Origin: Tubulanus polymorphus | Taxonomy: Eukaryota > Nemertea > Palaeonemertea > Tubulaniformes > Tubulanidae | Reading direction: 5' to 3' | DNA length: 64,000 nucleotides | Assembly (NCBI RefSeq): GCF_964204645.1 | Contig: NC_134029.1 | Span: 3,047,001 to 3,111,000 of the forward strand | In this document: positions 3,078 through 63,763 of the stretch, piece by piece | How positions within the stretch are numbered: the stretch's first letter is position 1 | How the letters are laid out: every line of letters begins with the position of its first letter | Notes under the pieces: generated by a model | The model's input: only the letters and a program-made list of their open reading frames with translations | Database searches by the model: none | What the model was told of the DNA's origin: nothing | Position numbers and translations under genes: made by a program

Positions 3078-4742
3078 TTAATCAGCTGTATTTCCACGTG
3101 AATAACGTTTATGAAGACTCTGATTGAACTGAATGAATAGAGTTCGAATGGTATCGACGTCGTTTATAGAACCCAAACCAAAAATATACGGTCGATTTTC
3201 GAATAAATCATCTACATCCAACAATTCCTTTAGCTGAAAAACAAACAAATTCAGATCAGGAAATATTCGATTATTTGAAAATCGAACTCAAACTCAAATT
3301 GAACTTTGAACCAGATCCAACACTATGAATACATACCTCAGTTTCAGACCTAGCACTATTCACATCACTGTGTGTCGCTAAGATAAGGCACGGTAATTCA
3401 CCGAGTGCAGGATCTCTGAGAGCTTTCTCTAATTCATTTTTAGCAGTAGAGAATTCTTCTTCATTACTCGATGCATCGATAATGAATATAACACCGTGAG
3501 CACCTTTATAATAATGACGCCAATACGGACGAATGTTCGCAGCACCTGTGAAAATACATCAAGCAATCTCGGTTACAGAGTTTCTCGGTCTCGAGTATTG
3601 GTAGTGTTTGTACAATTTCCAAAAGGATACATGAATTTAAAATGTTTTTTCATGGGTGATTTTTCGATTTTCCATAATGGAAATTGGGAAAATACCATTA
3701 TATTACAGGGATGCCAATATCTTAGTGGTGACTGGTTGATAAAGGAAAATTGCTGAAGAAAGATGCCGAAAAGTTTTTCCAATTTCCCAGTCCGCTGGGG
3801 GGACTGGGCTAGGATTTGAAAACCTGCATTGGATTTGAAAACCGGCAAATTTTGCGTACCAGTACATACTTCACACACAGCCCATAGCCCAAACCACAAA
3901 AATGTGATTGTGAATGAATTAGACCAGATTTGAAGAGGAATGCAGATTAGATTGCTTTAAAATACAGTGCAATGAAATGATTTATCATTCAATACTGACC
4001 TCCGATTTCTTTGACATTTAGTATACAATCATCAAAAAGAATTGCTTTGATACTGAATCCTGAAATTTCACAAACAAACATATTATATCAAATACTTGGT
4101 AAAAACAAAATATAGATAGTTAAATCGAAATCAAACAATGCATTCAATCAAGAATATAAATGTTTATTGGAAGGTAACCCCCCAATAAACTGCCATACTC
4201 TCTTCACTGCCAAAATTATAAGACGTTGTTCTTAAATATGCCCATTACTAAATTCTCTTTTACTTTTCTATTTTTCCCCTTGCCCTACCATCTATTTCTT
4301 GAAAAAATCAATAACTCCAAGTAATCAAAAGAGACCTAAATTATCATTTGTATTCGAATGAGAAATGATGAACTTACCGACTGTTGGTTCGACATCAGTA
4401 GCTTTCTCACCACTGATTAACGCTAACACAGTAGTTTTACCTGATTTAGTTAAACCGATACAAATCGGATTATATTCAGGTTTTATCACTTCCGCTTTTG
4501 AGCAACAAATTCGCCGAAAAACCTGAAATCATTCATTTGACATTTGAGGCTTCCGACATTTTTCTGGCCAATGGGCCCTCAGTCGCTTATCAACTCTTCA
4601 CATTTTCCTAGATGTTTGTTTGATCATCAAATTTGAAATCGGAATCGTCTTCAATGTTTCAATAGATATTGTTGTAGATAATACTTACTGAATATAAACC
4701 GATTCTACATACAGCACAAGCGAGTCTCAATGAATCGCACAT
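3078..4742 (-). CDS. ARL15: ARL15, ADP-ribosylation-factor-like small GTPase
   Basis: Five minus-strand coding exons join in frame to 207 codons: 4742-4689, 4522-4378, 4059-4000, 3545-3337 and 3233-3078, all with GT-AG introns. The length matches human ARL15 (about 204). The P-loop GLTKSGKT is at residues 41-48, preceded by a Cys-rich N terminus (CRIGLYS, RRICCSK) that could be palmitoylated, as is known for ARL15. Other family signatures are GFSIKAILFDDCILNVKEIGG and the ANIRPYWRHYY block. Switch II reads EIGGAANI instead of the D-x-GGQ of ordinary ARFs, and the NKxD position reads THSD; both oddities are also seen in vertebrate ARL15, so they mark orthology rather than decay. ARL15 is a Golgi/endosome GTPase linked to magnesium transport (CNNM) and TGF-beta signalling; that is family knowledge. 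It is head to head with MFSD12, about 1.1 kb apart. Confidence 0.93.
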
Positions 4743-5847
4743 TATTGCGATTCATTCGTCAATCGCTGAAATATTAAGACAAATAAAATGATAAATCAAC
4801 CAGGTGAGACACAGAGGATACGCCGAGATCCAAGCTTCAGTTCAACTGCCGCTCCACACTATCACTGATTTAGAAGCCCTTTTCTTCTCATTTTTGACAA
4901 AAGATGTTACAGGCTTAAATAAAACTTTAAAATATTAGATCGTTTAAAATCCTTTCAACTGCAGAACATGGTCTTGGAGACTCCGGACATGTAGTAAATT
5001 TGATGATACCAAAAGAATCGTTTGATAAACGATGAATCCCTGTCAATGTCAAAATCATTGTCATCGAACGAAATATACGCAGACTACTAAAACGATAATC
5101 TCTATACCAAAGTCAAACAGCATTTCGTGGTTAATTCGCCTTAAAAATGAGCGAGGGGAAAAGTCGAGCACTTTTAAAACCAGCCATATAGGTAGAAATG
5201 TAAATATCGCATATACGACCTTCCAGCCTCTCCTTACTTTGTAATAAGGATAAATATACGGGCCCCAAAACCTACATACATTTCTTTTCTGACACTTCCG
5301 GGTAATCCACAATTGAGTCCAAATCCGCATTTCGTTGAATTTACTTCCGGCTTGGTTCTTCTACGTCCTGGTCCTTTACGTCCGGTTAAAGAGACCCATG
5401 CGCGATTTCGTCAACGGGTGGATACCGAAGTCAGCTGATTGTCAAAAGCATGATAACTGTCACTTTTACTTGTGAAACTTGTGACACGATGTGTAGTTTG
5501 AATAACTGTCCGAGAAGAGGTGACCAGGTCCCGCCTTAAGAGGCCCCTGCCTGCTGCCAAGTAACAACTGTGTCAAAAAGGGGAGACAACGTACAACAAC
5601 AACGAACTTCAAATTATCAATCCGAAAAAAAAGAAAATTTAGTAAGTCTGTCAACAACGATAACATTATCATTTAGATTTACCGTAGGCTGCGTTCCTAC
5701 GTGAACTGATGAGACTGATTTCGACGAAATTTTATATGCTTCATAATCGTTTCAAATAGGCCCTATAATCAAATGATGTATTTTTATTCGCAGGGACTTG
5801 TCGTGATTATATTTTGCGCGGGGATCGATCAACGTTGAGGAATAAAG
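4743..5847. promoter_or_regulatory. Divergent promoter region between ARL15 and MFSD12
   Basis: The two genes are transcribed away from each other from this 1.1 kb. ACTTCCGG occurs twice (5294-5301 and 5343-5350), the core of an ETS-family site often found in TATA-less bidirectional promoters. A splice-acceptor-like TTATTCGCAG ends at about 5793, 55 bases before the MFSD12 ATG, so MFSD12 probably has a non-coding first exon in the 5350-5700 stretch. No transcript data support this here. Confidence 0.5.
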
Positions 5848-8800
5848 ATGCCTCCTCCGACTATCGACAAACTTCCGTTCATCCGGAAATTATCATATAG
5901 CGTCGGACATGTGATGAATGATCTGTGCGCGTCGATGTGGTTCAGTTATTTACTCGTTTACTATCACAATATCGTACAGTTCTCGAACAATATGGCCGGA
6001 TATATAATGTTACTCGGACAGATTGCGGACGCTATTTCCACTCCGCTCGTCGGCTACGAGGCTGATCACACGGAAAAAGGATTCTGTGGTTATTCGAAAC
6101 GCAAATCTTGGCATCTCATTGGTAAATATATTGAGGCAGTGCGGGCTGGGCCTTGCGATAAAATGGATGAAATGAGAAGCCCACCAATCGGTTTGATATC
6201 TTCTACTAGGCCTAATGGTTTTTGAAATTTTGCCTCTAAATCTCATTCTGATAGTGACCGTGAAAATCATAAGTGTTGGGATTTTTATTTTCTCAATTAA
6301 TTACTGAGGAAGACATCAGTCGATTGTGATAGTTACAGTGACCCCTGTATCCATAGATATTTCATTTATCTTGAGTTTAATCTATTAATTCAATTTATGA
6401 TCATAAGCATAATCTCCACTATGATTTGCTGATCATATCATCAGCTATATCCCAAATAATTAATTCATTTTAGATGGCTATGTTAAAATGACATAATTGT
6501 CACATAATAGACATCAAATGAATACCATAGATGATTTAAAAAATGTATTACCCTATATTCATCCAGGTCTAGATATAAAAGGTCTTTTTTAAAGAAAGTG
6601 GGTCACTCGTTCAATAGCTCCAGTCCAATGTATAAGTGAATCATATCTAAATTGCTTAATTCTGGTATACTGGGTTTTTAGATGCTTTTATGATAACTAC
6701 ATATTATTATGATTTTTATTGTAGGCCGATCACAAAAATCGTTTTATGACTATCTTTTGAAATTCAATTTTTTGAATTTTTTATAAATTGTTTGGGAAAT
6801 CATAAATTTATGCATTCGATTGGACTTTACTTATTTTGCTTCTTGGTTGTTTTTAGGGACACTGTCAGTAGCCTTGAGTTTTCCTTTCATCTACAATCTG
6901 TGCATAACATGCGAAAATGCACCGAATTGGTCACAGTTTATTTATTACGCTCCGTTTGTCGTGATATTCCAGTTCGGTTGGGCTACCACTCAAATATCAC
7001 ATCTATCTCTTATTCCTGTCCTCACACCGTATGAAGAGGAACGTGTTGAACTGAATGCTATGAGGTTTGTATGACGGTTTCCAGTTCTATCGTGGTTATT
7101 ACTACTTAGGTATAAATTTGACAACCCCTATTTCATTTTCAATGAATATCCATTTGATTATTCTCACAGAACCTTCTGGCTATGGCTATGAAATTCTTAA
7201 AACAATGCTTGGATTCAGGTTTCATGCGTGATGTATGTATTTCAGGTATGCATTTACAGTTGTCAGTAATGTGGCCGTGTACGGACTCACTTGGCTACTA
7301 TTGAATGCGAATACTGATGCCAGTGAAATGAAACATTTTTTGGGTAGGGCTGATGCGCCAACATTTAGAGTAAGTATTCTCGTGTATTGGTTTCATAAGA
7401 CAAAAGCTCCTATAGTGGGTAACCATTGATGAAACCCTATAGTGTTCTGATAATTTAAAACCCATACTATGAATGAAAAATAATGTCTGAGAAGTTTCCT
7501 TGAGATGGAAGTCTATTAACATTGCGACTACATCCTAATAGTCACTTTCCACTTTATTTTTCATTTTTGATGGCGAATTTCCATATTCTCTTATAGTAGA
7601 CCTTGGGGGCAGTAGCTTATTATGAGGACTTCTCTGATTTGTTCTGATTGTATTATTTACAGAATCTGGCATTTATCGTAATTGGAATTGGACTCGTATT
7701 CAGTGGTATATTTCACTTCGGCACTCGAGAATCGAGACAAGTGAATGAATGTAACATCCAGCAGCAATCAGTCGAAGGCATTGAGTCTTATACTATTGAA
7801 CGATCTGAAGAGAAACTGACTATGAAATGGTCGTGTTGGTTAAAACTGAAACAGTTCTATTTGGTAAATTATTCGCTTTTCGAGACAGTCGACCATTATT
7901 CATGAGTCTTTTTGACCCAGGCAAAATTAAGGCCCTGGCCAACCAGCCGCACTGCTGCCAAATTAGGCCGACGAGGCCTGTACCAAGGTTTAGCGTGGGT
8001 CGAATGATACCGTATCTACGCTTATTGTTTCTGCAAGTAACTCACCTCGCTTGCCACTGCATTTTTTAATAGTAACTTAGAAATGAGAGTGGTTTACGTG
8101 TGAACACACTTTATTACTAAGTTTGACTCGGGCCTAATCTAGACTAGTTTTACCTGGGTCGAATTGTCTCTGTGTGATGATGCTTCTCGTGTACGTTCTA
8201 AATGATTTCTTTCTATTTTTCTAGGTATCACTGTTATACATGTGTACACGTCTCGTTGTGAATGTTTCACAGATATATCTCCCGATGTTTTTACTCGATG
8301 CTTTAAAATTAGATAAGGTGAGGAATCAATGTAAAAAACCCATCCCTCGATGCGCCCTTTGGGTTCGAAACCATGAACTGGCATGTTAGATTCAAACATT
8401 CTATCCACTCACCCATCCAACTCGATTGTTGTTTTTGCTTCCAGGTTTACATGGCTATTATTCCGTTAATGGTTTTCGTCAGTGGATTCTTGACGTCGAT
8501 GTTTATGAAAGTTGTTAATAGAATCTGTGGAAGAAAGGTACGTGCAAGAGATATCCGACCCGTTTCATCAATTAAACCAAAACCTGTTGGAAAGATCTGT
8601 ACATATGCTGTCTATTGGGTTTTTTGACAATCAAAATTCATCTCTAATTCGTGTCTTATTTTATTCAGATTACATATTTCATTGGTTTGCTGTTGATTTA
8701 TGGTGCTTGCATTTGGTTTTACTTCATTTCGTTGTATCGACTTGAGCTGCAGATATTTGGCGCCGCTGTGCTACTGGGAAGTGGATGTTCCACAATACTT

Positions 8801-21500: not shown

Positions 21501-23198
21501 GATTAGAAAACTAACGTGTTGATAGTCACATGTATTGTGATATGTTTCCTTGTAATTTCAGAATCTTGAAAGCGTGAGCAATGAATTTTATCCGGAGATG
21601 AAATTTGCTATGAACCACAAGAAGATCAACCTCGCTAATGATATGTTAGCGTGGGAACACGAACGTTTTAGTTTCCGTCGTCTACCAGCATTTACTTTAT
21701 CACGTATGGATTCACATAGAAATCTAACGCGCACTTCTATTACTGATCAAAGGTAAATTATTAATGACTAATAATCGGCTGTCTGAGACGGGGAACTTGG
21801 CTGCACCGGCTATCCTGTTGGATAGTGTGTGTTACATTTGGACAACCTGGGATTAATACTTTGTTCCTATTGTGAAAAAACTGCCCCCATTGAGGATATC
21901 TTTTATAATCTAATCAGGGAATTTTTTGTTCAATGGTCAGGGAACTGTCGAGCAATCGTTGTCCTTGTAATGAGAGCACTGTTGTCGTCTGATGAATCCT
22001 CACTTGCCACAGTTGACTGCCGAATCCTCTCTCATTGAAATGTTATTTTTCCTCTCACAGATCGTCAGTCGATATATCGAAACTACGACGTAATATACAC
22101 GTAATGGTCGAAGCATTAGCGAGACAGGTTTACGGAATCGTCAACACTGAACAATTAGAAATATTCAACGACGCGTTGGACGTACAAGAACACGTGATAT
22201 CGTCGTGGCTCGATATTCTCGTATCTCAACCACGTCCGGCTCAACTATTAGACACCAGTCATCCGTTAATAAATACAATGCACGACGCCATGGAACAATT
22301 CCTTAAAGACGTCAAAATCATCGAAGTTAAGGCTGATAAAAGGTAATCGACGTTTGGCATTGATTCGATATGATGAAGTATGCCTTTTTGAAAAATTGGA
22401 TATATCACTGAAAAATCCTGAAAATCTGTGGAAATTCCGGAAAAATGTCTGTCGCAATAGTTTGATCCCGTTTCATTCACCGCTTTGTTAATGTACCTTG
22501 ATGGGAAAAAAAAATGTTCTTAGTAAAATCTGGCAAAATTGGTGATTTTCAAAACCCATATATTCAATTCCTCTCTGCAGTCCTTTGACGATGCTGTATT
22601 TTATGTTGCTTTATTTGTAGAGATCCCGAATATGTGTTTTATGATGGTGAGCAGTTTTCTATGCATGCTTACAAGTAAGTACAAACTACAAACTAAATCC
22701 AGGGTTCTTACAGATGAAGGAAGGTCAGGGAAATCATGGAATTCTGATTTCTGAATTTTTGGTGTCTTGTTTTGTTGGTGATGTTTGGCACAAGGAATCT
22801 CTGATAAGAAACAGCCCCCACTGAGGATTCGATATCTTATATTTTAGTTCGAATTTTTGGTCAAGTCAGAAAAATATGAAAGAAATTTGGATTCAGTTCA
22901 CAGTTCTGAGTTGAATTTGACTAAAGTATAAAAATATGAAAATTTGATTCAATGTTTTTGTTTTCTACATTTTCAGCGTAAAACCGGCAGTATTTGATCT
23001 ATTCCTCGGCTTGTTGATAGCCGGCTATATATATCTAATGTATCTACTCGTACAGGTAACAACTAAACAAACTTAGTTCAAGGCGACATCGTTATTTCTG
23101 TTCGGCTAATTTGTGAAACTTCTCATTTATTACAGAATTTTAATTGGATCCGTGCGGTAACGAAGTCTGTACTCAGTCAAAAACCGAAGACTCAGTAA
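18583..23198 (+). CDS. NCLN: Nicalin, ER membrane protein of the BOS/NOMO complex
   Basis: Twelve exons join in frame to 559 residues (human 563): 18583-18760, 19280-19615, 19869-19963, 20061-20144, 20387-20490, 20572-20660, 21346-21470, 21562-21752, 22061-22342, 22621-22674, 22977-23055 and 23136-23198. The N terminus has a hydrophobic segment at about residues 18-35 (signal sequence). The middle is a nicastrin-like, M28-peptidase-related fold with VAHYDAFGVAP, DSNGSGV, LLSGGGKFNYQGTKKW and DMLAWEHERF. A single membrane helix lies at about 517-539 (AVFDLFLGLL, YLMYLLVQ), followed by a short basic tail ending KTQ, as in human. Nicalin works with NOMO and TMEM147 in ER membrane-protein insertion; it is not known as an active peptidase. 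Intron 5 is the shortest (81 bases). The ATG at 18583 is preferred over an upstream in-frame TTG. AATAAA at 23373-23378 is a likely poly(A) signal. Confidence 0.95.
20160..20310 (-). repeat. tRNA-like SINE fragment in NCLN intron 4
   Basis: Read on the minus strand, a tRNA-like head (TGACTGAGTGGTTTATAGGA) is followed about 40 bases later by a B-box-like GGTTCAAATTTC and a CTTGCTGGAAGG tail. Spacing and order resemble a tRNA-derived SINE; an intact tRNA fold is absent. Confidence 0.5.
20860..21270. mobile_element. MITE-like element in NCLN intron 6
   Basis: The left end, GTCCCTACAACTCTTTGAATCC, and the right end, whose reverse complement is GGTTCCTACAATTCCTGG, form an imperfect terminal inverted repeat. 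The interior is a run of degenerate CCTTGAAAATCCTTG-type units. A one-ended copy (GGTCCCTACAACTCCTTGAT) lies at 41574-41690. Confidence 0.5.
21800..22036. repeat. Dispersed repeat, copy B, with nested MITE fragment
   Basis: Within NCLN intron 8. The outer blocks match 14030-14390. Inside, 21875-21950 (CTGCCCCCATTGAGGATATC, ATCTAATCAGGGAATTTTT) matches the family described at 24391-24633. Confidence 0.45.
22701..22875. repeat. Fragment of the AGGGTTCTT MITE family in NCLN intron 10
   Basis: It starts with AGGGTTCTTACAGATGAAGG and contains GAAACAGCCCCCACTGAGGA. Both blocks recur at 24391-24633. The right terminal repeat is not recognisable. Confidence 0.45.
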
Positions 23199-25340: not shown

Positions 25341-26233
25341 ATGTTGCAGGTACGTATCGGCTAGGGGGAGGGGGCTGTTTATTATTTCACCTGAAACTGA
25401 AATATTGGGTGATTCATTAAGTATCTAGAAAATTAGCATTTCGGATTTAGTTTTTCAGACTGATTCTTGTTTACCGTTAATTTTGGATTAAAAATTTCAG
25501 ATAATCACACGTTTATTTGTTCTTATAATGGTTATACTCGTCATGGCATTCAACAAGCAAGCAGAGGTCGATGCCAAAGGTAAAAACTCTCCCTCATGTA
25601 TTTCAAAATGAACCGTTGTGTGCCTTTGAATCAAATGTAAGAATGTTAGAAACTTATTTATCAAATTTATGGTAATTTTCACAGAAATTGTCAATTTGTT
25701 CTTCATTTATCTGAAAATTACTAAGTGATACTAAGCATTGATGAGTGCATTAACATTAAAAAATAACATGTCCTAGTACATGAATAATGACAAGTGAAAT
25801 CTATTCGAGAATGAAATTTAACATGCTCAATATCAGTTCTGTAATCAGTTCATTTCTATAACTGCCAGGCCTGTTATGGCTTACTTGATCATGAGTTTAA
25901 AAAAAAGTAATGTACAGGGTAGATAGGCAGCCAGCTGGGTCAACTTTAGAAAAACAAGATAGAAATTGTTTAGCCTTACTGTTTCACTGGTGTTAGATCT
26001 TGGAGTTTTCATTTGACAAGGGATTGTAATTGCGGTTATCTTGTCCTAAACATGTTAACATTAGTAAATCGTGCCCAGCACAAATGCAATAAACAGCGAA
26101 TTACAGTACAGTGTATGCAGTTGACAAATGTTCATCCGTTTTGATTATTTCAGCCTATGGAAGGTGTCCAGTCTTCACTTGTGATAACTTTCCTTCCTGG
26201 TTCACTAAACAAATGGGCTGGAGTGGTAAATAA
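25341..26233 (+). CDS. Unrecognised 55-residue secreted peptide precursor (possible neuropeptide)
   Basis: Three exons join in frame to 55 residues: 25341-25349, 25501-25579 and 26154-26233, with introns GT-AG at both junctions. Exon 1 holds only M-L-Q. Exon 2 encodes a hydrophobic core (RLFVLIMVILVMAF) then a polar NKQAEVDAK stretch, matching a signal peptide with cleavage near VDA. Exon 3 encodes a short peptide with exactly two cysteines four residues apart (AYGRCPVFTC), an aromatic section (NFPSWFTKQMGW) and the end SGK. A terminal Gly-Lys is the usual substrate for carboxypeptidase trimming and C-terminal amidation, so a roughly 24-residue amidated cystine-loop peptide is plausible. AATAAA follows at 26316-26321, and an ATAAAA motif about 58 bases before the ATG could be a weak TATA box. 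I do not recognise the family; a host-defence or other small secreted peptide is equally possible. Splice joins are inferred. Confidence 0.6.
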
Positions 26234-27128
26234 GTCAGATGTTTACCATAATGGCAATAATACGGTATAATTCATGTGAATTGGAACAACTGTTCAATGG
26301 ATAAAAGATGATGAAAATAAATAATTCTAATGATACAAGTTTAATGTACCGGTAGATATTGTATTTTCTTAAATTTTCACCAGGAATCTTAGGCAATTGT
26401 TGTAACAATTATGATCTTGGCTTCCTCGTATGTGTGGCTTAGGCTTAGGGTGCGCAGGCAGGGTGGCCACTTTTATTTGACTTGCTTTTCCCCCCCGACT
26501 ATTCCCAACAAGCACATTGTTTTCCCAGACTAGATCTGCTAAGAATCCCATCAAATACAAGAGATGTACCATAGATGGAAACTTGTTTGATTTTACACAT
26601 GATCTAGCAATCTCAACAAATTCCCCGTACTTTTCACTGATCTTTTCTTTTTTACAAAATTCTCTCGACTATTTTCTGACTTTTTTTAAAGAAAAAGTGC
26701 ATTGGCGAGTTCTATAGATGCTCTCAGAATATTGAGTCAATGGAAGACACACACACAGGACATTATTTAAAATGTTTTTAATTTTATTATTCGCTTTTCG
26801 GCACTACAATGTTTATATACATACTAACCATCCAATATACAGTAAAATGTTGTGTTTAACACGGTTTACACCACAAAGTTTTTTAACATCGCTATGCCTA
26901 CAATATGGACACAATTTATCCGAGTTTTACTGATGTAATTGTACAAACATCACTTATGTACCATTTTAGTTGTCATTAGTCAACTGAAGAATTAGATCAA
27001 CGTATACATTAAATTACAATCTGAGTTTGATCTCGATCGATTCATTTTTACAAATTCTACACACAAGCAAAAACTAACAACAAATATTTAACATTTCTCA
27101 CAATTGATAATCATTTTGTTCGATTCTC
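26234..27128. other. 3' regions between the small-peptide gene and BORCS8
   Basis: The convergent 3' ends meet here: plus-strand AATAAA at 26316-26321 for the peptide gene, and TTTATT at 26783-26788, a minus-strand AATAAA, for BORCS8 (3' UTR of about 350 bases). No other gene was seen. Confidence 0.45.
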
Positions 27129-32800: not shown

Positions 32801-35800
32801 ATAGCAATCTACTTTACTTTCCTATCATAGGTAGTCTAAGACATTGCCTGGGCTCAGTTACACAGTCGCAACTCAAGTCCATATGTGGTCTTAACTGTGT
32901 TTAGACTGGTCTTTTAAAGTTGTCAGGTTGGCTATAAGGCTAAGGTGGTCTTAGACTGGTCAAGCCGTGCCTGTGTAACTGGCCCAGTTCCATAGGCTAT
33001 GGCATAGTTATGCAAGTTTAAGTTTGACTTAAAGAGTTAAAACATCTGGATCCAGTTCCACAGTTCTGAGCTAGAGTTAACTCTCAGTTAAGATTAGTTC
33101 ATTTTCAATGTTTTAACTCAGAGTCAAATCTTGAGTCACAACTGTGGAACTGGGCCCTGGAATGAACAAATTTTAACTCTACTTCTGAAGTCAAACCATG
33201 GGCTCTTTGTTTTAGAGTAATTGTTCAATATGATATCGATCTGGATTGGTTGCAGGTTTCTTGAGTGTTTGGTCCATTTCATCGACTGTGCGCCCCAAAA
33301 TATAGCTATTCTAGATCTAACTGCGGATGTAGGCTATAGGCCTAAACTATGATATCTCGTTTATATGTCCATGGCATAACTAATCCTTGCAGCCTCTGGA
33401 TAAAATGATGTCTGTTTTCTGTGGTTTTAATGTTGTTTCTGATCTTTAACTCACCGTTGAAGTATTCAAAAAAATCTAAAAATCCCATTTTCTATATCAT
33501 CGAATGTTTATGAGGTGCATGAAATTCTTTTATCGCGAAAAAATGATCTTATGCGTTATTTATGGTGATATTGTATTTTGGGTGAATTACACAGGTGTAT
33601 TGACACTTGTATTATATTGCTGCTAGCCGTTTCTACTAATGACTTAAACTCGTCGAGTCTCTCTTATTCCTACTCGACGCAGTAACACTGCCCCTCATCA
33701 TATTAACCAAAAATAAGACGCCGGCCGGCCGCTGAATCTGATGAATGTCTCGAACAATCAGTCTGGCTTGAATGCCGAATGAACAGTGATGGATTACTGT
33801 CTAGGGGTTACACACTATTGACTGCTTATTGGCAGATATTTCTTATCCATGTATTATATATATATATATATATATATCACGTAGGGTTGAGTTTTATAGA
33901 GATTTCCCTGATGTTGTAATGAATCTGATACATGAGAAACTGACCACCAGTTCGGTCACTCGGGTCTGGTTTTTTGTATACAAAAAAATCAATATCTGAT
34001 GTCCTTACACTGTTTATACATATCAAAAATACATAGATGAAATGGCATCGAAACTGAGAGATTCTGAAATCAATGTTTTTTCCAACTTCAGGAATAACTG
34101 TGTATGGTATATGGTAAAGTTGATTACCCCCGGGATTCTCAAGCTGTCGTATTAACAAATTTGACTTGATTAAATTCGAGAATGCAGATAATATTTTCAG
34201 CGTGGTAATTGCCATGTTTACAATCGGTATGACAGTCACTCGGGGGATTCACAACGCAAAACCCAGCAGGTTTATTTAATTCATGACTTGATTCATTTCA
34301 TTCAAACTGCCGCCATTAATTTGTAATTTGTCACGAGATATCCTTCCTGCCCTTTAATGAATTTTATATGTTATTCACGTTGAAAAATCTGTGAGGTAAT
34401 TTTGATAGAAGAGCGTGAGGTTTAATATAGATTGTAACTGCCCCTCTCCCTCGTATCATGTAGGTTAATGAGAAAACATGGTTCCATGAAACAATGTTTC
34501 CGACATCTAACATGTCTGATTTCTTGTTTCTGTGTGTCCATGTTTCCCTGTGTCGTATGCATTGGGCATTAGAAGAACAACATTTTTAAAGTGAACGAAG
34601 CTTTTTTGTTGCTATATTTAATAATCTCTATTCATTATTATTTATGTATTGTAAATATTGAAGATAGTTTTTAAGTTTTTATTGGTCACGTATCTAGTCG
34701 ATGTTAGCAGCTGGTTAAAGCATGAGTTTTTCTTATTCAATTTCCAAGAACAATATATAAACCTGAACATCGATTAATGATGTCCATAAAACTCGTATGT
34801 GATCTGCTCTCATTTTACCAAGTCTGAGAATCTCTGGTGTAGTGTAGATTTTTGAATGATAATCACTGATGGCCCGGGAAATGTCCGGGAAGTATTCCAT
34901 CATATCAGCAAACTGTGCTGGGCTTAATTTTTCATCCAGGCAATTATGAATTGTTTGAAAACGTGAATACATCATGTCTATAACGACAGTTCGTCGCGAG
35001 ACCTTGTCAATGGAGGATTTGACTCGATGTCTAACAATCTGCGGTATTTACTATAAAAAGGATTTACTCTCATCAAACACTTTCATTCATTCCGGTGTCT
35101 GAGGCACAATCTCTACGGTGCAGAGGAGTAGAGTATCTGAGGCACAGTTTCTGTGGAGCAGTCACTGATGAGGCACGGTATCTGAGGCACAGTATCTGAG
35201 GCACAGTATGACCCAGTATCCGAGGCACAGTATGACCCAGTATCTGAGGCACAGTATGACCCAGTATCTGAGGCACAGTATGACCCAGTATCTGAGGCAC
35301 AGTATGACCCAGTATCTGAGGCACAGTATGACCCAGTATCTGAGGCACAGTTTCTGTGGAGCACAGTATCTGAGGCACAGTATGAACCAGTATCTGAGGC
35401 TCAGTATGACCCAGTATCTGAGGCACAGTATGACCCAGTATCTGAGGCACAGTTTCTGTGGAGCACAGTATCTGAGGCACAGTATGACCCAGTATCTGAG
35501 GCACAGTATGACCAAGTATCTGAGGCACAGTATGACCCAGTATCTGAGGCTCAGTATGACCCAGTATCTGAGGCACAGTTTCTGTGGAGCACAGTATCTG
35601 AGGCACAGTATGAACCAGTATCTGAGGCTCAGTATGACCCAGTATCCGAGGCACAGTATGACCCAGTATCTGAGGCACAGTATGACCCAGTATCTGAGGC
35701 ACAGTATGACCCAGTATCTGAGGCACAGTTTCTGTGGAGCACAGTATCTGAGGCACAGTATGACCCAGTATCTGAGGCACAGTATGACCAAGTATCTGAG

Positions 35801-38800
35801 GCACAGTATGACCCAGTATCTGAGGCTCAGTATGACCCAGTATCTGAGGCACAGTTTCTGTGGAGCACAGTATCTGAGGCACAGTATGACCCAGTATCTG
35901 AGGCTCAGTATGACCCAGTATCCGAGGCACAGTATGACCCAGTATCTGAGGCACAGTATGACCCAGTATCTGAGGCACAGTATGACCCAGTATCTGAGGC
36001 ACAGTTTCTGTGGAGCACAGTATCTGAGGCACAGTATGACCCAGTATCTGAGGCTCAGTATGACCCAGTATCTGAGGCACATTATGACCCAGTATCTGAG
36101 GCTCAGTATGACCCAGTATCTGAGGCACATTATGATCAAGTATCTGAGGCACAGTATGACCCAGTATCTGAGGCACAGTATGACCCAGTATCTGAGGCAC
36201 AGTATGACCCAGTATCTGAGGCTCAGTATGACCCAGTATCTGAGGCACAGTATGACCCAGTATCTGAGGCACAGTATGACCCAGTATCTGAGGCACAGTA
36301 TGACCCAGTATCTGAGGCACAGTATGACCCAGTATCTGAGGCACAGTATGACCCAGTATCTGAGGCACAGTATGACCCAGTATCTGAGGCACAGTATGAC
36401 CCAGTGTCTGAGGCACAGTATGACCCAGTATCTGAGGCACATCATGACCCAGTATCTGAGGCACAGTATGACCCAGTATCTGAGGCACAGTATCTGAGGC
36501 TCAGTATGACCCAGTATCTGAGGCTCAGTATGATCCAGTATCTGAGGCTCAGTATGATCCAGTATCTGAGGCACAGTATGACCCAGTATCTGAGGCACAG
36601 CATGACCCAGTATCTGAGGCACAGTATGACCCAGTATCTGAGGCTCAGTATGACCCAGTATCTGAGGCTCAGTATGATCAAGTATCTGAGGCACAGTATG
36701 ACCCAGTATCACATCCTCTCTAATCATTTGACTTGAAGCCTCCATGTTCAGCCCAAACTAAATCAAAGTTTCACTGCTTGTAACTCTAGAAGAATATAAT
36801 TCCACGCATTGAGACGTGATATCAGTGAAAGCATCACGTCGAAACACCTTTCAAATTTCAGTGTAAGCTTAATTTGGTATGTGTGAGGTTTATAGACCGG
36901 TAGTGTGATTATAGTTGACACTACGATTCTAATATCATTGATGTCTCCTAATTATTCAGCATTGACTTAACTTCAGTGCATCATCCATTGCCCTACAGTA
37001 AGAAATACGATACGATATATCAACAATCGATTTTAAAATCAATTTCGTCGTCGACATTTGTTTCTAGCAGGTGCAAGCGCAAATTAAAGATCGATCACAT
37101 TTATCCACGAAGAGGGCGGGGGTGCCTAAAATCCTTCGATTCTCTCGTCTAACGCGTCCATTAACAAATTATCTCAATAAAGAATTCCTTTCTAAGCATA
37201 TTTAACTACTTAATAACGACGCGTTTAAAATTTACAATTGTCCGACGCTCCGTTAATCAAACCAACTCTTGCGATATGTTTATTTACTTAGATCGTTTTC
37301 AAAGTGCAAATATTTCCCCATAACTGGCACCGGATATTACGACGATTGTCCCCCCCCCCCCCCCGTAGAAATCAAAGTTTCCAGCCTAGTTCCTACCCCC
37401 CTGCCCAAATGGATTTATTTACAGTGGAATTTATTATGCCAGCGCTGCTACAAGATTAATTACGATATGAAAGGAATCATACGACTGACGCTTTAATTGC
37501 GCATTGCGATATTCATATATGGTATATGTTTGTCTGGTCATTTTCAATTTGCCGGTCAGCGAATGATGTTCATATAAATCGAATACATTTAACTATAAAC
37601 AGCAGCAGCAGCGGTGGCGGTGGCCCTACGACAAACCAGCTTCCATTAGGATACACATCTAAATCATATCTGTTGTTGATGGATATATGGTAGGCAGCGG
37701 TTTTAAGTTAAGTGCGGTTATTGGGAAGCGTCGCTGCGAGTAATATTCCGATTCGAAGTAATCGTTGTGGGCTGGTTTATGAACGAATTCATTAAACGCA
37801 GCTGTCACTCGAACGCGGTCACCGCCGACGATGAGGCGACTTTGTTTCGTTTTTGCCGAACGAATCAATCGTTGACGGGGCGCGCGCGGGTCTCGGGTAT
37901 CGGAGCCCGGGATACGAATCCGAACTCAACGCAGATCGTATTAATCGGTAGTGTATATAACTGTGTCAGTCTCGGCGGGTGCTGTAGGGACAGTATTGAT
38001 CTCACTGCGTTCGTTCGTCGGTTCGTACTGCGAGGTTACGATGCAGTCACAGTTGTAGTTTGGAGCTGAAGCAGACGACAGCAGTAGCGAACGCTCAGCG
38101 GCTGATTGGAAGTCGCGTCCTCGGCGTCGTGTACCCCCGCCTATCGTTGTTTAAGCTGCTCCCGGTTGTCGTAACAATCAGATCAGTTAGTCTCTCTCTC
38201 ATCCGCGCTGCTGCTGCTGCTGCGAGTTGATCGTCAACGGTTTATTATCGATACCTGGTGCCGCACGCGTTTTGACGTTAAATATTCTCCGCGGAAACTA
38301 CACTCGAGATCGGCACGCGAATCGCGACGACTCTCGGGAATTCTGGAGAATGGATATTGCCGTCTTGACGATCTGATCAACGCCGATTTCGGCGGCGACT
38401 CGGCGCGTGTGTATTCGATGATGATGTTGCCTCGGGGCGCAGGACGGGATAGAAATAGTCAGTAATAAGAGACTCGGTACATCGCCGCACACATCGGCGT
38501 GTTCCATTCGTGTGACTTATCCTCGTACCGCAATCCCTACACGCGAGCTACAAGTCAGAAATCCTTCCTCGTTTCGACCGTAAAGACTTGATAAATACGG
38601 CGCTTGTTTTTGTGCGGATGCGCGTCGTGTCATTGACTGTTTTGAAATCGAATCCCGACGAATCGTGAATATTATCATTAACTATGTGGGAATTTTTGAA
38701 TGTGTTTCAGGACGCGATTTTACGTCTGAGCGGAGTGGTGACGCTCGATGAACTGAGATCGGCCATCAAGGATGCAATAAAGCTCGCGTTGCCTGAAGTG

Positions 38801-61832: not shown

Positions 61833-62426
61833 TCTCATTGTACAGAAGTGTACAAAGTACATCTCATTGTACAGAAGTGTACACAGTACATCTCATTGTA
61901 CAGAAGTGTACACAGTACATCTCATTGTACAGAAGTGTACACAGTACATCTCATTGTACAGAAGTGTACACAGTACATCTCATTGTACAGAAGTGTACAC
62001 AGTACATCTCATTGTACAGAAGTGTACACAGTACATCTCATTGTACAGAAGTGTACAAAGTACATCTCATTGTACAGAAGTGTACACAGTACATCTCATT
62101 GTACAGAAGTGTACACAGTACATCTCATTGTACAGAAGTGTACACAGTACATCTCATTGTACAGATGTGTACACAGTACATCTCATTGTACAGAAGTGTA
62201 CACAGTACATCTCATTGTACAGAAGTGTACACAGTACATCTCATTGTACAGAAGTGTACGCACTTCATCTTAGTGTACAGAAGTGTACACTTTACATCTG
62301 ATTGTACAGAAGTTTTCACAGTACATCTGATTGTACATAAATGTACACAGTTCTTCTCACTGTACATAAATGTACACAGTTCTTTTCATTGTACAGAAAT
62401 GTACACAGTTCTTTTCATTATACAGT
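61833..62426. repeat. 29-bp minisatellite, about 20 copies
   Basis: The unit is CATTGTACAGAAGTGTACAC plus AGTACATCT. The first dozen copies are nearly identical; the last six, from about 62260, are diverged (CATAAATG, TTCTTTTC). Since 29 is not a multiple of three, each frame cycles through all three, and all three plus frames stay open for 144-217 codons. Confidence 0.97.
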
Positions 62427-63501: not shown

Positions 63502-63509
63502 ATTCCGCA

Positions 63510-63763
63510 GATCCCAGTACGGCTGCGGATCCCAATACGGCTGTAGATCCCAGTACGGCTGCAGATCCCAGTACGGCTGCAGATCCCAATACGGCTGCAG
63601 ATCCCAGTACGGCTGCAGATCCCAATACGGCTGCAGATCCCAATACGGCTGCAGATCCCAGTACGGCTGCAGATCCCAATACGGCTGCAGATCCCAGTAC
63701 GGCTGCAGATCCCAATACGGCTGCAGATCCCAATACGGCTGCAGATCCCAGTACGGCTGCAGC
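63510..63763. repeat. 18-bp minisatellite, 14 copies
   Basis: Units of GCAGATCCCAGTACGGCT and GCAGATCCCAATACGGCT alternate. The plus frame reads Ala-Asp-Pro-(Ser/Asn)-Thr-Ala without stops; other frames and the minus strand are also open. See the finding on a possible repeat-coding PDE2A exon. Confidence 0.97.

Follow-up and report, generated by a model that had tools for sequence, protein, structure and literature searches.

Calcitonin-type peptides carry an N-terminal disulfide ring, a family-like helix and an amidated C-terminus, while molluscan leucokinins end in WSamide and have the motif F-x-x-W-x-amide. In the annelid Platynereis, orphan amidated cysteine peptides (FGa, QRIa, QDNa, PCNa and CCAa) are described, in the part of the source drawn on here, as products of lineage-restricted precursors that combine amidation with cysteines possibly forming disulfides (PMC3890597), and a lophotrochozoan survey, in the portion used, clusters known precursors into 72 groups (PMC8557429). 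Excerpts of the same survey portray the CCWamide/agatoxin-like precursors as short and spread over three exons, with the peptide in the last exon, eight cysteines, an amidated end with a C-terminal aromatic residue, and an intron falling between the second and third base of a basic codon (PMC8557429). Aplysia urotensin II, according to the passages of its report considered here, has a C-x4-C ring with an aromatic tail, is defined by the core C-[FL]WK-x-C, and lies with an unamidated end at the C-terminus of a precursor no shorter than 112 residues (PMC3493602), and a bryozoan peptide of the vasotocin/oxytocin type, given as CYIRTCDLGILG in the part of the source at hand, contains a C-x4-C ring and the run T-C-D (PMC4990251).

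The locus compared here with these systems lies in the nemertean Tubulanus polymorphus, within a stretch of 64,000 nucleotides that was analysed as a whole (the window). The original prediction had proposed that three tiny exons join in frame there, that the encoded peptide has a CPVFTC cysteine pair and ends in Gly-Lys-stop, and that a poly(A) signal lies 83 bases beyond the stop. The coordinates, the junctions with their phases and the translation were all reproduced, the cysteine pair and the ending can both be read in the exon 3 translation, and the poly(A) signal stands where it had been placed. The features are as follows.

25341 to 25349, + strand: putative first coding exon, ATG TTG CAG (MLQ), with A at -3 of the ATG and donor GTACGT (score 8.0)
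25501 to 25579, + strand: putative exon 2, with LFVLIMVILVMAF as the hydrophobic core of a putative signal peptide, ending in phase 1 (acceptor 7.1, donor 6.6; G+C 0.38)
25840 to 25947, no strand given: within putative intron 2, one copy of a dispersed repeat some 105 bases long, matched at least 43 times elsewhere in the genome
26154 to 26233, + strand: putative exon 3, AYGRCPVFTCDNFPSWFTKQMGWSGK and a stop, with two cysteines and a Gly-Lys amidation signal (acceptor 11.3; G+C 0.425)
26316 to 26321, + strand: AATAAA, possible poly(A) signal, starting 83 bases past the stop

All junctions are GT-AG (CAG/GTACGT, TTTCAG/ATA, AAAG/GTAAAA and TTTCAG/CCT), intron 1 is in phase 0 and intron 2 in phase 1, and the in-frame join computed from the window sequence gives a spliced product of 55 residues, MLQIITRLFVLIMVILVMAFNKQAEVDAKAYGRCPVFTCDNFPSWFTKQMGWSGK, followed by a stop. 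A separate first exon is needed because, upstream of exon 2, a stop is reached before any in-frame ATG; four first exons with a donor of at least 5 are open in frame between 21.5 and 25.45 kb, the stretch scanned, and of these the one at 25341-25349 lies closest and carries the strongest donor. Between 25650 and 26400 the only acceptors scoring above 4 are those at 25685, 25869 and 26154, the last being by far the strongest and the sole one with a long open continuation. Putative intron 2 also holds a second AATAAA, at 26088. The matches to the repeat in this intron are 76-91% alike and most cover query positions 500-607, their number being a minimum, from the scoring of 40 among 1763 candidates.

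The candidate sits in a free gap between two convergent neighbours, nicalin, lying upstream and likewise on the + strand (identified by a PDB sequence match at E 1e-13 and by its exons, read to about 23.2 kb), and BORCS8, downstream on the other strand (Pfam PF10167, E 3.3e-18, and also a PDB match), whose stop we read near 27.14 kb. Exons 2 and 3 might be alternative last exons of nicalin, reached from its penultimate exon (phase 0, 23055) by a junction to 25501, as the open frame that results and the score of 7.6 for the donor at 23055 would allow, but nicalin has, in our reading, a last exon of its own, with a stop near 23.2 kb and an AATAAA downstream, and we regard such a splice form as very improbable. 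Elsewhere in the window, a first exon at 5839-6225 resembles MFS transporters (PF13347, E 3.9e-6, slightly short of the curated cut-off), and a partial Arf-family GTPase is encoded at 3271-3558 on the other strand (PF00025, E 1.6e-12). A tandem array of about 1.5 kb at 35190-36710, with a 24-base unit and several open frames on the two strands, is probably a satellite, and further arrays at 61833-62425 and 63507-63762, with units of 29 and 18 bases, likewise have several frames open.

Across the genome (267.8 Mb in 77 contigs), queries of 55 and 26 residues match only their own locus at E up to 10, with no second copy or paralogue. COX1 is missing from this assembly. A homeodomain query of the same genome gave 38 matches, ten of which lie on one strand of contig 6 over about 320 kb (5318150-5634900). 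These ten, which we take from characteristic signatures rather than from a tree to be Post2, Lox2, Lox4, Antp, Lox5, Scr, Hox4, Hox3, Hox2 and Hox1, read as an intact lophotrochozoan cluster running from Post2 to Hox1.

No Pfam-A family matches the candidate at E up to 10, and the PDB sequence search returned a single match, to a chain labelled IM459, at the chance level of E 1.5. Exact-string searches of open-access text found no report of the peptide, the matches being unrelated texts, WSamide in papers on kinins and CCK, and the hydrozoan TPGRWSamide; the candidate may be called undescribed within just these bounds, namely the Pfam scan, the PDB sequence search and exact strings in open-access text. 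Compared by description only, it resembles the Platynereis orphans in its amidation signal and its cysteines, and because amidated cysteine peptides are already reported among annelid orphans in the part of that source considered, it would be at most one more orphan of a familiar kind (PMC3890597). Its novelty is modest, and it may yet have a match among the orphan or clustered precursors of these surveys.

Eight known cyclic or GW-containing peptides were tested for relatedness to the candidate against cysteine-preserving shuffles, and the similarities were discounted as evidence of homology, with only the bryozoan vasopressin-like peptide, the best of the eight at P 0.026, falling below 0.05, uncorrected. 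The C-x4-C ring and T-C-D are common to the candidate and the bryozoan vasotocin/oxytocin-type peptide as far as the source goes (PMC4990251), but the neurophysin domain of that type is absent from the 55-residue candidate precursor. The ring with an aromatic tail is likewise seen in Aplysia urotensin II, whose position, precursor length and unamidated end, in the material available, differ from those of the candidate (PMC3493602); the alignment of the two is not beyond chance (P 0.77), and the candidate has CPVFTC where urotensin II has its defining core. With CCWamide/agatoxin-like peptides, as the survey's excerpts present them (PMC8557429), the candidate has in common the short three-exon precursor, the peptide in the last exon and, as predicted, the amidated end, but it has two cysteines and a C-terminal Ser, and its intron 2 is in phase 1, after a Lys codon. 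Calcitonin, CGRP and amylin have a C-x4-C ring with T-C as in the candidate and are otherwise unlike it, and alignment to two vertebrate members of the type, which were among the eight peptides, is not beyond chance (P 0.23-0.25). The predicted W-S-amide end is shared with molluscan leucokinins, but the candidate has Q where their motif has F. A corazonin-like spacing, F-x4-G-W, was likewise discounted at P 0.11, and phoenixin/SMIM20 and other conserved micropeptides were considered and set aside. Among the families compared, there is none whose full set of defining features the candidate displays.

The precursor itself begins with a hydrophobic run, picked up by a simple rule rather than a trained predictor, has two cysteines with four residues between them, stops 17 residues beyond the second, and ends in the amidation signal Gly-Lys-stop with no dibasic site; we place the likely end of the putative signal peptide so as to divide it into MLQIITRLFVLIMVILVMAFNKQAEVDA and KAYGRCPVFTCDNFPSWFTKQMGWSGK. 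Taken as a gene, the locus would be a three-exon, single-copy one encoding a very short precursor, from which the N-terminus would be removed as a signal peptide after ...AEVDA or ...DAKA, while the cysteines would close the six-residue ring CPVFTC. A carboxypeptidase would then take off the Lys and the Gly would become an amide, giving a peptide of about 24 residues ending in ...KQMGWS-amide, which may serve, once released, as a neuropeptide or peptide hormone and act on a receptor, most likely one coupled to G proteins. With the anatomy right and the combination of features unusual, it makes sense to read the locus as encoding a small, secreted, amidated peptide, and from these features a neuropeptide can reasonably be inferred. 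Alternatively, the product might be a genuine small protein, secreted or lodged in a membrane, that acts otherwise than as a messenger, for instance in host defence or as a regulator with one helix, and that ends in Gly-Lys fortuitously; its very hydrophobic stretch of helix length, its single copy and its want of a dibasic cleavage site would suit such a protein, but two close cysteines and Gly-Lys-stop suit secretion and amidation better, and we consider this improbable. If the gene is real, a secreted messenger with one disulfide and an amidated C-terminus is the likeliest product.

Whether there is a gene at all was weighed with splice-site scores, coding composition and chance models. The splice-site model was trained on nicalin and BORCS8, which supplied 14 sites of each kind; left-out real sites score from 1.3 to 10.3 for donors and from -9.1 to 13.0 for acceptors, and the candidate's four sites average 8.2, two of them being only moderate. 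The exon 3 acceptor score is reached by 19 acceptors in 128 kb of strand. With just 14 introns behind it, the splice scoring counts against certainty.

Composition is neutral to slightly unfavourable. The 55 codons have a log-odds of -6.2 bits (-9.7 and -13.1 in frames +1 and +2), which 14.8% of 2000 non-coding samples match or exceed (5, 50 and 95 per cent points -23.1, -13.3 and -3.3), and which is lower than in 11 coding chunks scored in-sample, having been used in training (1.9 to 22.9). For exon 3 alone another frame does better (-1.5 vs -7.1). Synonymous usage, at -0.10 per codon, does not separate the classes: non-coding sequence gives -0.33 to 0.00, 25.6% of non-coding samples are as good, and 15 left-out coding fragments span -0.66 to 0.32. 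Exons 2 and 3 have a higher G+C content than the introns (0.344 and 0.326), coding fragments having 0.397-0.516. The codon tests gave no support to the exons as coding, and this is weak evidence either way because a signal peptide and a fast-evolving peptide may differ from housekeeping genes in codon composition.

The chance tests listed models of two or three exons whose product starts hydrophobic and then required a Gly-Lys/Arg end and two cysteines, criteria fixed after the candidate had been seen. One stop position in the window has all these features (four nested models on the + strand, none on the other), and in 264 kb around the candidate, both strands included, the same single model is found, together with two further amidation-ending models, neither with any sign of being a gene. 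Shuffled sequence from a third-order Markov model (400 windows, each 59.5 kb, 23.8 Mb in total) yields 0.0225 all-feature models per window when scores are loose; once the candidate's mean score is demanded, 0/400 windows hold one with the cysteines required and 1/400 without. Such shuffled windows flatter the candidate because real sequence is richer in models, partly from real exons: spliced secreted-looking models number 50 in the window vs 20.9 in Markov sequence, and 14 vs 0.8 at scores of at least 8.2. Decoys that keep local composition (the same 264 kb, reversed and complemented) hold 210 vs 216 in the real strands, and 14 vs 26 at 8.2 or above; an amidation ending occurs in 3 of the 216 real models and none of the 210 decoy models, and two cysteines in 75 of the 216. 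From 14-26 models per 264 kb x 3/426 (amidation endings in real plus decoy models) x 75/216, chance would yield 0.008-0.016 models per 64-kb window, the same order as our guess of 0.002-0.005 per window for true genes of this type, which starts from the roughly 100 neuropeptide genes of a genome.

The abundance of such models, these similar rates and the neutral codon composition favour chance, in which intergenic non-coding DNA permits a neat splice model by coincidence, whereas the far poorer Markov windows speak against it, as do the strength of the sites, the rise in G+C at the exons and the poly(A) signal, all in keeping with a gene model. The gene reading is further favoured by the exact junctions and frame and by the place in a gap left free between convergent neighbours; the two moderate splice sites and the lack of a dibasic processing site count against it. 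The candidate probably, though not decisively, exceeds chance. Allowing for the post hoc criteria, we hold the case for a real gene to be about evenly balanced, with the chance origin only a little short of an even prospect; the whole proposal, a three-exon, single-copy gene whose short precursor would give a cyclic, amidated, secreted peptide released as a messenger, is one we advance tentatively, as rather less than an even prospect. That it represents a previously unreported lophotrochozoan family of signalling peptides, marked by the ring CPxFxC and an amidated GWS terminus, seems unlikely; such a family would have escaped notice because no coding exon of it is longer than 27 codons.

Should the candidate not be real, it would show how readily a convincing small gene assembles from non-coding sequence. 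Should it be real, it would mean that messenger peptides divided among micro-exons escape genome annotation, and it would add a ligand to be sought among orphan receptors.
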